Shown here: piece after piece, positions 10,059 to 14,752 of the stretch | Layout: each line of letters begins with the position of its first letter | Numbering within the stretch: position 1 is the stretch's first letter | Assembly: GCA_016839845.1 (NCBI GenBank) | Contig: JAEOTL010000135.1 | Span: forward strand, 1 to 45,047 | Reading direction: 5' to 3' | From: Promethearchaeota archaeon | Lineage (GTDB): Archaea; Asgardarchaeota; Lokiarchaeia; Sigynarchaeales; SOKP01 | DNA length: 45,047 nucleotides | The notes under the pieces: generated by a model | Databases searched by the model: none | Seen by the model: the letters and a program-made list of their open reading frames with translations, nothing else | What the model was told of the DNA's origin: nothing | Made by a program: the position numbers and the translations under genes

Positions 10059-11531
10059 TTATATAATTTTTTCGCTTCTATTTTTTGGAAAATATTCCAA
10101 TACCGTAATTATTATCGCACCAATCATAAGGGGAATTAATATTAACCATAATTGGTTTGACGGTGAAGTAGTTACTTGAATAATCATTATTATGAAGTTA
10201 GTCAATATAAATGTTGTCCAAAGGCTTAAAGTTCCAATTTTTACAGGTTTTCTTGTAAATATTCTTCTGATAAGCACCGCTATCGCATATACAACTATAA
10301 TTAAAAGAGGTATTGGTACCCAGAACAATTGTAGCCAAGTTATTAATAAAATCAGTGATGAAAAGACTATGAAGAAATTAGTGTAATAAAGTATTCTTCT
10401 CGAAATATTCTTATTTTTATCAATTTTAAACCACCAAATTCCAAATGAGACAAAGAGAATCCATGCAAAAATTAAATCGAGAATTTCTAAAATTTCAAAA
10501 CCCGCTTCTAGACTGTAGTGAGTTCCCCAGTAAGCTGTGATTATCGCGTATCCAAGGATTTGTGTAAGTAGAATGTGGTATGTTGAATTTGATATAACCT
10601 TAATCCTCCTTGAAAGCCAATTATCAGGCTTTTGAGGCAAAAAATACATAGCCAGTAAAAATAAGAAAGCCGAGTAGGGGATGATTAAAAGATGATAATC
10701 CCCGCTAAGTAGCGAAACGCCTTCGATCCTGATTCGAAATTTAAAAAACTCGTGAGCCGTAATAAATGCTAAACTGACCGGATACAAAATCCACATGAAA
10801 AAGTTGCGTTTATCCTCAAATTTATGTCCAAATGAAAACCACATGCCTAAACCAACAGCAGGTAAGTAAAAAAGTATACTTGTCTGGAAAAAATTTTTAA
10901 TATGTAATTCAGTCCAAGAAGTAATTTCTCCTATTAAGAAAAATACTATTAACTGCATTATGATCTCCACAATAAAACATAGTATCAATGCTAATTTTGG
11001 TAATTTCGTAAAAACCCAATATAAGAATGGTAGAAGCAAGATCGATTGGAACAATAAAGGAAGGAACCAGTTTCCCGGGCCCCAAAACGGCATAAATCCA
11101 ATAAATAAATTTGAAAAACCATGTAATGGGGAATATTGATTTTGATACATCGCTGTAATATCAAAGCCGTATATAAATAGACCAATAAAGGTTGAAAATA
11201 CGTATAACACTAGAAATGGGATAATATACCGTATAATTTTACGTTTGAAATAATCCCATGAATATAACTCCCTTAATGTAGTTTTCCCAGATGTTTGGAT
11301 AGATTTGGCTATATTAAATCCCATAACTATTAAGAAAACGGGGATAGAGATCCTTTCCCATAATGTAACACCGATAAAGCTTTTAACACTCCAATCAACA
11401 ATGTGATCAAAAATCACTAAAAATATCATTATTGCTTTTAGAGTGTCTATCTGAAAATATCGTGTTTCATCAGTAGTTCGTTTATCCATTTCAGTTTGAA
11501 TTAATTGACTTTCTTGCTCTTTCTCTGTCAT
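10059..11531 (-). CDS. Acyltransferase-3-like polytopic membrane protein
   Basis: A 490-residue membrane protein. After about 28 polar residues it begins with FQIDTLKAIMIFLVIFDH, which matches the start of the acyltransferase_3 family (R-x-L-D-x-L-R-G-x-A-x-L-x-V-V-x-x-H), including the helix-1 histidine thought to be catalytic. Roughly twelve hydrophobic segments follow. Family members O-acylate cell-surface glycans and lipids. The helices after residue 380 may be an extra module. It is convergent with rps7 and starts about 90 nt from the divergent HTH/NrdD-like gene. The acyl donor and acceptor cannot be told from the sequence. Confidence 0.7.
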   Translation of the reverse strand: MTEKEQESQLIQTEMDKRTTDETRYFQIDTLKAIMIFLVIFDHIVDWSVKSFIGVTLWERISIPVFLIVMGFNIAKSIQTSGKTTLRELYSWDYFKRKIIRYIIPFLVLYVFSTFIGLFIYGFDITAMYQNQYSPLHGFSNLFIGFMPFWGPGNWFLPLLFQSILLLPFLYWVFTKLPKLALILCFIVEIIMQLIVFFLIGEITSWTELHIKNFFQTSILFYLPAVGLGMWFSFGHKFEDKRNFFMWILYPVSLAFITAHEFFKFRIRIEGVSLLSGDYHLLIIPYSAFLFLLAMYFLPQKPDNWLSRRIKVISNSTYHILLTQILGYAIITAYWGTHYSLEAGFEILEILDLIFAWILFVSFGIWWFKIDKNKNISRRILYYTNFFIVFSSLILLITWLQLFWVPIPLLIIVVYAIAVLIRRIFTRKPVKIGTLSLWTTFILTNFIIMIIQVTTSPSNQLWLILIPLMIGAIIITVLEYFPKNRSEKII

Positions 11532-11622: not shown

Positions 11623-13815
11623 TTGCATGAGTTGAGAGAAAAAGAGAGAACTCATTATTTAGAAACTTTGGGACGTTTTTCTTTAAATCTCTTCATTTGG
11701 AGAGCCCAAATATCACCCCCATATCACCTAAACTCACTGATAGATTGTAAAAATCCTAAATTTTTATATAATGGGGAAACATATTATTTAGTTAAACAAA
11801 TTTCAAAATCTAATACAGTTTCACTTAGTAAAGTGGGTTCCGACAAAAATACCAATTTCTTGGAAAAACATCTAAAAACACTTGGTCAAACAGTAAGGAT
11901 AGATATATTAAAAAAATTGAACTCCTCTCAGTATCATATATCCTTTTCAAAACTCCAGAAGGAAGTCCTAGATCAAAATCTCACTTCAGTTAATTTCTCT
12001 TTTCATTTGAATGAATTGAAAAAACGTGAAATGATTGACTCAAATGAAAATGGATATTTCATTACAAAGTTAGGAAAGGACATTTTGGGGGGGATATTGT
12101 CAATAGAAGAAATTCTTATCAAAAAAAACAAGAAGAAAATGATAAGAACTTCAAAATATTCAAAAGAACTATTCGATTTAAAGAAAATAGAGGAATATCT
12201 TATTACTGAAGGGGGATTGGAAAATTCTTTAGCTCAGAAAATTGCTCGAGAAGTAGAAGAACGATTAGCAAAAACAGATATAGAATATTTAACAGCTCCA
12301 CTAATGCGGGAATACATTAATGCAATTTTATTAGAAAATGGATTAGAAGAAGTAAGACATAAATTAACGCGATTAGGTACTCCCCCATATGAAGTTTCTA
12401 AACTATTTAATTTAGAGAAAAAAGGGTTACTACCTGATCAATTCATAAAGAAATTAGGATCAGATGTTTCAGAACAATATCTCCTTTTGAACCTTATCCC
12501 AAAAAATTTGGCTGATTTGTACCTTTCAGGAGAAATTGCACTCTTGAATTTGAACTATTGGGCGTTAAGACCATTAGGAATTTATTTAGACTCTAAAACT
12601 CTAATCGATTATGTTATGCAAAATAAAATTTCTTCTTCAGGTAAATCTAGCGGTGGTATAGATTATATTAATTTAATTTTAGCATTATTCGATTTTCTTC
12701 ATCAACTTAAACATTTCTACTCAACAGATGTTCTATTAGGTAATTTCAGCAAACTTTTTTTAGCAGATTTAAATTTCGCAGAGAGTCAATCTTATCTATC
12801 TGATATTTTAGCATCCCAGATGCTCAAATTCAACAATGACCATAATACAACTCATTCTCACTTAACATTAGGATTCAGTGGAAAGATTGATTCACAGGAA
12901 AATCAAAATTTGAAAGATTTTTTAAATTCTTTATCTAAAACACAAGATCATTATCATTTACCATTGCTAGCTTATGACTATTCAAATATTGGCACACAAA
13001 GCACTGAAAACACCTTATTAACTGAGTTCCTATCAGATAACCTTAGACCTAATACAATATTCTTTAATAATCAGAATTCTAGTATACTAAATTCAACAAT
13101 TACAAAGATAGAACATCCTCATGATAACAAACTCATTTTGGATAAAATCCTAATCAATCTACATATGATCTCAGTAGAAGCAAAGCAGAATGATGATCTG
13201 TTTCTTGAAATATTAGAGAATAGAATGGAATCTGTTTTTGATCTTTATCACTACAAGACAAAGTTAGTGGAAAAGAAATTAAATCCTATTAACAAATGGG
13301 ATAAAATATCACAGCATATATTCGGTGATAAAAAAGAGAAAATTTTTGATGAATCAATTAAATCTATTAGCTTTTTTGGTTTAAATAAAGCAATCTTAAA
13401 TCACTGTGGGATTGAACTTGAGAGGACAGATAACAGTACTTCATTTGCTTTAGAAGTATTATCATTAATGAAAAGGATAATCGAAGAGAGAAATGAAACA
13501 GACAATAATCACTATATTTTCAATCAACCTCATAAGGCTGAATATTTGGGAAACTCATGGCATAATGATGTGCAACATGATAACGGATTAGGGAGCTGTT
13601 ATTCGTCAAAAATAATAAGAGAGGAATGTTCCATTCCAATCACCAAAAAAGTTGCCATTTTTAAAAAATTTGAACCAATTCTAAGTGGTGGGTCTCTTTT
13701 TACAGAAAATATTGATGATGAAAAGATCTCAGTAAATGAACTAACTCAGTTATTAGTGAAATCAAAAATTAATGCATTCTCACTAAATTCTGTTAATAGT
13801 AAAACGAGCCTTTAA
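11623..13815 (+). CDS. wHTH + ATP-cone + degenerate NrdD-like protein (putative nucleotide-responsive regulator)
   Basis: The 730-residue protein has three recognisable parts. Residues about 80-155 resemble an ArsR-type winged helix (LKTLGQTVRIDILKKL..., SFHLNELKKREMI). Residues about 165-260 resemble an ATP-cone, the allosteric nucleotide-binding domain of ribonucleotide reductases (PLMREYINAILLENGLEEVR, HKLTRLGTPPYEV). The rest matches class III anaerobic ribonucleotide reductase NrdD in order (NLNYWALRPLGIYLD, DFLHQLKHFYSTD, SFFGLNKAILNHCGIELE, FALEVLSLMKRIIEE, SGGSLFTENI). It stops before the glycyl-radical domain, and only four cysteines exist (42, 595, 659, 669), none arranged as the C-terminal zinc site. 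Catalysis therefore looks lost. I infer a DNA-binding sensor of (deoxy)nucleotide levels. No nrdG lies nearby; pyrB is convergent. Confidence 0.7.
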   Translation: MHELREKERTHYLETLGRFSLNLFIWRAQISPPYHLNSLIDCKNPKFLYNGETYYLVKQISKSNTVSLSKVGSDKNTNFLEKHLKTLGQTVRIDILKKLNSSQYHISFSKLQKEVLDQNLTSVNFSFHLNELKKREMIDSNENGYFITKLGKDILGGILSIEEILIKKNKKKMIRTSKYSKELFDLKKIEEYLITEGGLENSLAQKIAREVEERLAKTDIEYLTAPLMREYINAILLENGLEEVRHKLTRLGTPPYEVSKLFNLEKKGLLPDQFIKKLGSDVSEQYLLLNLIPKNLADLYLSGEIALLNLNYWALRPLGIYLDSKTLIDYVMQNKISSSGKSSGGIDYINLILALFDFLHQLKHFYSTDVLLGNFSKLFLADLNFAESQSYLSDILASQMLKFNNDHNTTHSHLTLGFSGKIDSQENQNLKDFLNSLSKTQDHYHLPLLAYDYSNIGTQSTENTLLTEFLSDNLRPNTIFFNNQNSSILNSTITKIEHPHDNKLILDKILINLHMISVEAKQNDDLFLEILENRMESVFDLYHYKTKLVEKKLNPINKWDKISQHIFGDKKEKIFDESIKSISFFGLNKAILNHCGIELERTDNSTSFALEVLSLMKRIIEERNETDNNHYIFNQPHKAEYLGNSWHNDVQHDNGLGSCYSSKIIREECSIPITKKVAIFKKFEPILSGGSLFTENIDDEKISVNELTQLLVKSKINAFSLNSVNSKTSL

Positions 13816-13834: not shown

Positions 13835-14752
13835 TTAATCATGCATTAATTCGGCTAAAATTGCTTCTCTCATAGGTATTCCGTAAAATGTCTGCTTAAA
13901 GTATATTGTTTTTTCATTGTTGTCAATATCGGGAGAAATTTCTATAGTTCGCGGGAGTGGATGTAATAAACGAAAATTATCCTTAGTATCATCAAGATCA
14001 CTTTTCCTGAAAATGTAATAACCTTTAACTTTCTCATATTCTTCCAGGTCAATGAACCTTTCTTTTTGAATTCGTGTCATGTACAATACATCTAGAGTGC
14101 TCAAAATTTTTCTATAATCTGTGATTTCCTTATACTTCATGTGTTGCTGTCTAAGGTAATCTTTGTCTCTATTTCTCATTTTCAGCTCGAGAGGGCTTAT
14201 AAAATAAACATTCACATCAAAATTTGACAGCAAAATTGAGAGGGAATGAACTGTTCTACCATACTTGAGATCTCCCATTAATCCTATGTTTAAATTGTCA
14301 AGTGATCCGAATTCTTCCGTAATCGTCAATAAATCTAACAATGCTTGTGTTGGGTGTTCTCCACTACCAGATCCGGCATTGATTATCGGGACTTTTGAAA
14401 ATTTTGATGCCATTCTTGCAGCTCCCTCAAGTGAATGTCTCATAACGATACAATCACTATAGTTCTCTACTGTTCTTATTGTATCAGCTATACTTTCGCC
14501 TTTCTTAATTGAGGAAACATCACTAGAATGAAATCCAATTACATTCCCCCCTAATCTATACATAGCAGATTCAAAACTTAATCGAGTGCGGGTTGATGGT
14601 TCAAAAAAGAGAGTGGCTAAAATTTTCCCATTAAGAAGATTAGAGTTTTTAGTTTTAAGCATTTCTTTGCTTTTCTTCAAAAGATACTCAATATCTTCCC
14701 TTTTAAACTGCTTAGCACTAATTACACCTTCCCTAAAATTCTCCTGAAACAT
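13835..14752 (-). CDS. pyrB: Aspartate carbamoyltransferase catalytic subunit (PyrB)
   Basis: PyrB transfers the carbamoyl group of carbamoyl phosphate to aspartate, the committed step of pyrimidine synthesis. The carbamoyl-phosphate loop STRTR (53-57), HPTQ (133-136) and HPLPR near residue 263 are all present, and the 305-residue length is normal. The aspartate-binding 240s loop lies around 225-240. The regulatory chain gene pyrI, often next to archaeal pyrB, is not within the window. The gene is alone and leftward, 19 nt from the convergent HTH/NrdD-like gene and divergent from eL42. Confidence 0.95.
   Translation of the reverse strand: MFQENFREGVISAKQFKREDIEYLLKKSKEMLKTKNSNLLNGKILATLFFEPSTRTRLSFESAMYRLGGNVIGFHSSDVSSIKKGESIADTIRTVENYSDCIVMRHSLEGAARMASKFSKVPIINAGSGSGEHPTQALLDLLTITEEFGSLDNLNIGLMGDLKYGRTVHSLSILLSNFDVNVYFISPLELKMRNRDKDYLRQQHMKYKEITDYRKILSTLDVLYMTRIQKERFIDLEEYEKVKGYYIFRKSDLDDTKDNFRLLHPLPRTIEISPDIDNNEKTIYFKQTFYGIPMREAILAELMHD

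Follow-up and report, generated by a model that had tools for sequence, protein, structure and literature searches.

What does a protein do that resembles an anaerobic ribonucleotide reductase (RNR) and carries a DNA-binding head? This question is raised by a locus on a contig of a Promethearchaeota archaeon (the window, meaning the whole stretch of 45,047 nucleotides that was analysed), for which the original prediction proposed a regulator that binds DNA and senses nucleotides, derived from a dead class III reductase (NrdD). Based on sequence comparison and structure prediction, we consider it probable, at roughly three in four, that this fusion protein is a transcription regulator of RNR.

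Gene model and domain architecture

The open frame from 11623 to 13815 was confirmed with its 730 codons, as originally described, while the protein itself most likely has 660 residues, starting at the GTG at 11833 rather than at the TTG at 11623. Among the best 120 homologues listed, 111 begin at residue 70-71 of the 730-residue frame and nine later; since an in-frame GTG lies there, residues 1-70 are most likely not part of the protein, and a domain in this stretch was rejected because the listed homologues lack it. The features of the locus are compiled in Table 1, with residues numbered on the 730-residue frame here and below. The ATATCACC block sits 5' of the TATA-like box and is conserved in the aligned fusion-gene promoters of Lokiarchaeia; it was not noticed at nrdD. 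Further upstream, between rps7 and the fusion gene, the window carries a membrane gene of the acyltransferase family (10059-11531), a relative of which lies in the vicinity of the fusion gene at 14 of 81 Asgard loci.

Table 1. Features of the fusion gene and its surroundings in the window.
Feature	Position	Strand	Evidence
Fusion protein CDS, corrected GTG start, 660 aa (most likely)	11833..13815	+	Homologue starts; homologue lengths 635-671 aa
Residues 1-70 of the originally predicted frame, most likely 5' non-coding	11623..11832	+	Missing in listed homologues; contains conserved promoter-like blocks
ATATCACC block, two copies in the window	11710..11728	+	Conserved 5' of the gene in relatives (19 upstream regions aligned)
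TATA-like box TTTTTATATA	11761..11770	+	Position kept in most of 19 aligned upstream regions; TATA reading by eye
Candidate operator CCGACAAAA, overlapping the fusion gene start	11840..11848	+	45/46 Lokiarchaeia fusion genes; same element 5' of nrdD
Winged helix-turn-helix, residues 84-156	11872..12090	+	
ATP-cone, residues 172-250	12136..12372	+	
Catalytically dead NrdD barrel, residues 283-723	12469..13791	+	
Codon of conserved C595 (NHCGIE), outside the finger loop	13405..13407	+	99% of 121 sequences
pyrB, aspartate carbamoyltransferase catalytic subunit, convergent conserved neighbour	13835..14752	-	TIGR00670, 369 bits

According to profiles and predicted folds, which agree with the three parts originally delimited (a winged helix-turn-helix (wHTH) at about 80-155, an ATP-cone at about 165-260 and a class III RNR-like domain), the protein is a wHTH joined to an ATP-cone and an NrdD barrel. 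Pfam places DUF7347, a winged helix, at residues 84-156 (E 2e-9), the ATP-cone at residues 173-244 (E 0.028, under the cut-off in the window protein) and NRDD at residues 510-723 (E 2e-15, profile positions 283-506 of 562). In the relative L184, NRDD, DUF7347, ATP-cone and HTH_20 all exceed their Pfam cut-offs. The structure prediction that had been proposed as a check revealed both the wHTH and the ATP-cone fold, the latter matching 9a6n and 7p37, and the barrel shows the NrdD fold as well as its profile. Foldseek alone gave no matches for the N-terminal fragment at E ≤ 0.001, and the VIA and Foldseek lists leave room for unlisted families. The wHTH of the window protein displays an ArsR/HxlR-type fold and scores 17.1 bits against the ArsR metalloregulator profile NF033788 (HTH_metalloreg), for which the cut-off is 55 bits.

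Conservation along the protein is high above all in a few stretches, of which the ATP-cone region is one; its hairpin reads (I/V)RTS, followed by Glu-x-Phe and a Lys. Where NrdR, the bacterial RNR repressor, has Lys-Arg, the fusion has Arg-Thr, a feature that it shares with archaeal NrdD; counterparts of E56 and K62 of NrdR appear by eye to be kept. Among the cysteines of the barrel, C595 is conserved in 99% of the sequences, and C659 and C669 are not conserved.

Loss of the catalytic elements

As far as its sequence tells, the window protein is a catalytically dead NrdD, having neither the thiyl cysteine nor the NxN flap, the HxHD motif, the Zn site or the glycyl radical. Our alignment comprised 15 canonical NrdDs, 68 fusions (6 of group C1, 5 of C1b, 21 of C2, 13 of D1, and 23 of D2) and seven proteins of a second type (B). 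All 15 canonical enzymes display the finger-loop cysteines, the four Zn cysteines and the radical Gly, while none of the 68 fusions combines a finger-loop Cys with a radical Gly, in line with the original expectation that homologues would be without intact catalytic parts. Likewise, the NxN flap is present in 15/15 canonical enzymes and in 0/68 fusions, and the second His of HxHD is absent from all 68 fusions, though also from four of the 15 canonical enzymes (present in 11). HxHD is a triphosphate motif in the account of P. copri NrdD given in PMC11226230, and MGCR or MCCR predominate as finger-loop motifs among class III enzymes according to PMC9669993. The claim that the frame ends before the glycyl radical was borne out beyond the window, as none of the best 120 relatives listed has the R..GY motif; one of them carries a CxxC.

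The losses differ from group to group. A Cys occurs somewhere in the aligned finger-loop stretch of 13 of the 68 fusions, none of which has the radical Gly, and it is missing from all rows of the window's own family. A C-terminal Gly in a degenerate motif was seen in 12 of the 21 rows of C2, the longer Asgard relatives, and in two of the 23 of D2, never together with a finger-loop Cys. The Zn cysteines remain in 12-13 of 21 C2, 12 of 13 D1 and 19 of 23 D2 rows, and in no row of C1 or C1b. In view of these Gly remnants, surviving Zn cysteines and occasional finger-loop cysteines, the catalytic loss is to be regarded as graded.

Other unusual frames of the reductase family were encountered along the way. 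Lokiarchaeia possess a second NrdD-derived pseudoenzyme without HTH (L067, L068 and L070-L078, frames of about 600 aa), which stops before the Zn/Gly domain, has lost the finger-loop cysteine pair, branches inside the Lokiarchaeia NrdD and is found in at least 12 of 20 genomes. Short frames with the NrdD Zn/Gly domain alone or its end lie in L079 (4796-5059, 87 aa), L080 (4871-5146, 91 aa) and L081 (4918-5073, 51 aa); these may be remnants or spare parts, perhaps of canonical nrdD. Profile matches are split, possibly by inteins, in RNR frames of 1126-1228 codons, namely nrdD of G155 and G004 and nrdJ of G096, G099, G023 and G167.

Distribution and phylogeny

In a search of 5.8 billion proteins, 7992 candidates were scored, and 480 of them were homologues at E ≤ 1e-3. 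The best 120 of these 480 have 635-671 aa, are 51-100% identical to the query and bear NCBI names from Promethearchaeota, Thor-, Hod-, Hermod-, Odin- and Lokiarchaeota; one of them (P0001, Promethearchaeota archaeon) is 100% identical across 90% of the query. In the scan of named genomes the window protein alone retrieved no match, and a 24-row alignment retrieved 49 loci, 48 from Lokiarchaeia and one (L048) from a 'Thaumarchaeota' MAG. Across the Asgard phylum, 134 of 227 genomes match at E ≤ 1e-3, canonical NrdD being included through its ATP-cone; the fusion itself occurs in at least 81 of the 227, counting among the matches listed those rows that begin within the first 16 model positions. 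With the L048 protein as query, 219 of 300 Thermoproteota genomes match, partly through canonical NrdD, and 47 of them, besides the genome of L048 itself, match from residue 1-4 to at least residue 658 of 694. L184 in turn retrieved 4080 proteins at E ≤ 1e-3, of which the best 120 are 87-96% identical, the named ones being Nitrosopumilus. Among the matches listed, the Nitrosopumilus copies are annotated as 'anaerobic ribonucleoside-triphosphate reductase', 'ArsR family' or 'helix-turn-helix', and we reject the first of these annotations.

In a quick IQ-TREE phylogeny of 88 rows (SH-aLRT support only), 66 fusions are on one side of a branch with a support of 100, the canonical enzymes and type B on the opposite side. 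Judged by this tree, the fusions are one clade across Asgard archaea and Thermoproteota, including the aerobic Nitrosopumilus, which is most simply read as a single origin and a graded loss thereafter. Similar archaeal proteins with ATP-cone and HTH, whose existence had originally been suspected, are thus widespread in both groups, and with 66 of 88 tree rows sharing it the architecture is not an isolated case.

Genomic context and RNR repertoire

For Thermoproteota, 41 loci (L048 and L184-L223) were chosen from good matches, several of them closely related, and representatives of the neighbouring genes were identified by NCBIfam. Immediately 3' of the fusion gene, and in the same orientation, 19 of these loci carry the class II gene nrdJ; in two (L207 and L208), a glutaredoxin gene plus canonical nrdD follow the fusion gene. 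A pyrB neighbour is found in 19/41 loci, with a pyrI-like cluster nearby in 11/41, and in 69 of 81 Asgard loci (57/59 of C1 type, 12/22 of the others), where, as in the window, it mostly adjoins the fusion gene in convergent orientation; this linkage may be synteny only.

Full-length NrdD was detected in 16 and class I/II RNR (PF02867) in none of 19 Lokiarchaeia genomes, whose completeness is not given. NrdR (TIGR00244) was found in none of 52 genomes carrying the fusion, with nine of 14 control genomes positive.

An element shared by the fusion gene and nrdD

Within -150 to +40 of the gene start, CCGACAAAA is present at all but one of the 46 fusion genes of Lokiarchaeia and at none of 647 other genes of the same loci. 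It overlaps the fusion gene start in the window and in each of 18 aligned loci and lies, in most aligned loci, about 70 nt 3' of the TATA-like box. Up to 250 nt upstream of nrdD in Lokiarchaeia, CCGACAAAA was found in 13 and CGACAAAA in 14 of 15 testable loci, a sixteenth (L065) having been left out with only 80 nt of upstream DNA; L059 carries ACGACAAAA, and L052 neither CCGACAAAA nor CGACAAAA. Nearly all nrdD sites are located 76-88 nt before the first start codon (58 nt in L051), with a TATA-like box about 60 nt 5' of the site.

Genome-wide, CCGACAAAA occurs 13 times in G006 and 11 times in G007 (chromosome-level), no more than in the reversed control (16 and 20); in each, two copies are those at the fusion gene and nrdD, and both sites are also found in G001, G002, G003, G009 and G012, five further genomes for which all copies were listed. 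G006 and G007 display a third conserved site, between a ribbon-helix-helix gene and an unassigned 216-aa gene (L232 1501-1509, L243 1501-1509).

Where the element overlaps the coding region, the codon of Asp4 is GAC in 43 of 43 fusion genes, compared with 343 of the 1603 Asp codons of the same genes (Asp4 included), and although the residue before Asp4 may be Ser, Ala, Pro or Thr, the bases are kept. In L136-L140 (genomes G113-G117), the site is inverted, at a distance of 118 nt 5' of the fusion gene (86 nt in L137), which excludes a coding reason for its conservation there. Upstream of nrdD in G113, G114, G115 and G117, it forms a direct repeat at about 105-115 nt, and it is also present 5' of nrdD in G104, G157, G158 and G155 (as CGACAAA in G155), the start codons in G157 and G158 being inferred from the profile match. 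A dyad, TGTCG-N4-CGACA, was seen in L117 and L130 only, about 91 nt before the fusion gene.

The distribution of the element largely matches a single clade of the fusion: its carriers are C1, C1b and, within C2, L116-118 and L130, with L121 (at -270) and L135 (absent from the tree) as exceptions. Within this clade, CGACAAA was not found upstream of the fusion genes L119, L123 and L141, the last of which has CCGACA twice, nor was the element found at the nrdD-like genes of G105 and G106. The search for a conserved motif in relatives that had been proposed as a check yielded one for Lokiarchaeia, at the fusion gene and nrdD, but not for the Asgard clades with nrdJ that were examined (G096-G100, G023 and G167), where CGACAAA occurs at neither nrdJ nor the fusion gene.

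Promoters of ammonia oxidisers

In 11 Nitrosopumilus-type loci, GATC is frequent upstream of the fusion gene (54 in 3746 bp, 14.4/kb, part of this DNA being a short Zn-ribbon ORF) and of nrdJ (33 in 2399 bp, 13.8/kb) compared with other gaps (14 in 8650 bp, 1.6/kb), often at a spacing of 10-11 or 20-22 bp. Upstream of the fusion gene, CATG is elevated too (7.5/kb), and GATC-N6/7-GATC pairs are genome-wide no more frequent than in the control in three ammonia oxidisers; as such pairs are not rare elsewhere, GATC is a lead rather than a demonstrated operator. Another candidate, the dyad GT[TC]AA-N5-TTGA[AC], occurs upstream of nrdJ in seven of 11 ammonia oxidisers, with only looser matches at the fusion gene (L185 and L188), and was not used. 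In L184-L194 and L202, the gap that separates the fusion gene from the gene upstream of it holds the conserved Zn-ribbon ORF (about 55 codons, two CxxC).

Putative function and alternatives

The gene neighbours and the common promoter sequences suggest that the fusion switches a working RNR gene on or off. The originally proposed reuse of a dead NrdD is supported, at the level of sequence, by the neighbourhood of nrdJ, nrdD and pyrB together with the upstream element, and the best reading by analogy is an archaeal nucleotide-sensing regulator of RNR and of itself, a counterpart of NrdR made from a dead reductase. That NrdR itself was found in none of the 52 carrier genomes also speaks for this reading. 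In such a regulator, the barrel would retain the α2 dimer of class III enzymes, and ATP or dATP in the cone, possibly with dNTPs at the s-site of the dimer interface, would change the oligomeric state. The paired wHTHs would then bind CGACAAAA sites at the RNR gene and the regulator's own gene in Lokiarchaeia and their kin, while other clades would have a site of their own, for ammonia oxidisers perhaps in the GATC-rich promoters. Since the sites in Lokiarchaeia lie downstream of the TATA-like box at both genes, repression at high dATP would be expected. The fact that the element is not palindromic at most of these sites, unlike usual wHTH operators, counts against a regulator. Further points against it are the loci at which the element was missed, the Arg-Thr that sets the ATP-cone hairpin apart from that of NrdR, and the lack of a genome-wide enrichment of paired GATC.

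Pseudo-subunits are plausible partners in dimeric enzymes, and the fusion, with the fold of the enzyme and a gene adjoining nrdJ, might bind active NrdD or NrdJ and tune it allosterically, its wHTH serving as a protein contact or having a minor role on DNA. We consider this unlikely, as the wHTH is conserved, the fusion is associated with enzymes of both class II and class III, and the element common to its own gene and nrdD favours DNA as the target. A site common to two promoters does not name its binder, so CGACAAAA could also belong to another regulator of nrdD and the fusion gene, the protein itself doing something else; the third site at the ribbon-helix-helix gene fits this explanation, which we nevertheless find quite improbable, for the element largely tracks one fusion clade and other clades keep the fusion without it. 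An enzyme that still works together with a separate Zn/Gly protein is very hard to reconcile with the loss of the NxN flap and HxHD in 68/68 fusions; the short Zn/Gly frames mentioned above do exist, but in only three of 20 genomes searched, where they may be remnants of canonical nrdD, and they were rejected as the missing subunit. Finally, a decaying nrdD pseudogene, to which the shorter length might point, is refuted by 480 homologues with a narrow length range and many invariant columns at 52-77% identity.

Relation to known systems

A regulator of RNR built in this way would share the ATP-cone with NrdR (TIGR00244), which reads DNA by an N-terminal Zn-ribbon and has no reductase barrel, whereas the fusion consists of wHTH, ATP-cone and dead NrdD. 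The window protein has no match to TIGR00244 at E ≤ 1 and starts with a wHTH rather than a Zn-ribbon; as DNA reader, body and profile differ, it would work like NrdR and yet not be NrdR. From NrdD (PF13597/TIGR02487), it is set apart by the added wHTH head and by the lack of the NxN flap, HxHD and the combination of radical Gly and finger-loop Cys, and from ArsR/HxlR/MarR-type winged-helix repressors by the junction of its wHTH to a presumably nucleotide-sensing former enzyme. PutA, BirA and NadR are enzymes that double as, or have turned into, regulators, and here, likewise, a metabolic fold would sense the state of its pathway and control transcription. To our knowledge, transcription regulation has not been ascribed to any reductase of the RNR family. 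Our best reading from the sequences, a nucleotide-sensing RNR regulator derived from a dead reductase, had no earlier report or description that we could find in the open-access full text of PMC.

PMC12176259 and PMC9110341 call NrdR rare in archaea and describe a shift of its oligomeric state with ATP and dATP, and PMC11226230 reports that dATP biases NrdD to tetramers; the fusion could combine nucleotide-driven oligomer changes of both kinds. A wider scenario, which we put forward tentatively and at somewhat less than even odds, has a class III reductase lose its catalytic activity and acquire a wHTH in an ancestor common to Asgard archaea and Thermoproteota. In a large part of the archaea it would then have taken NrdR's place as the permanent regulator of RNR that responds to dNTPs, the DNA site changing with the class of RNR controlled (nrdD or nrdJ). 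As the barrel dimer remains, it may read all dNTPs via the old specificity site besides dATP/ATP at the ATP-cone.

With a DNA-bound sensor derived from a dead reductase, RNR allostery could be examined apart from catalysis. Such a sensor would also explain why an 'anaerobic' reductase seems to be present in aerobes such as Nitrosopumilus in databases. For the transcriptional control of RNR in archaea, where NrdR is called rare, this family is a concrete candidate, its DNA sites being predicted for both Asgard archaea and marine ammonia oxidisers.
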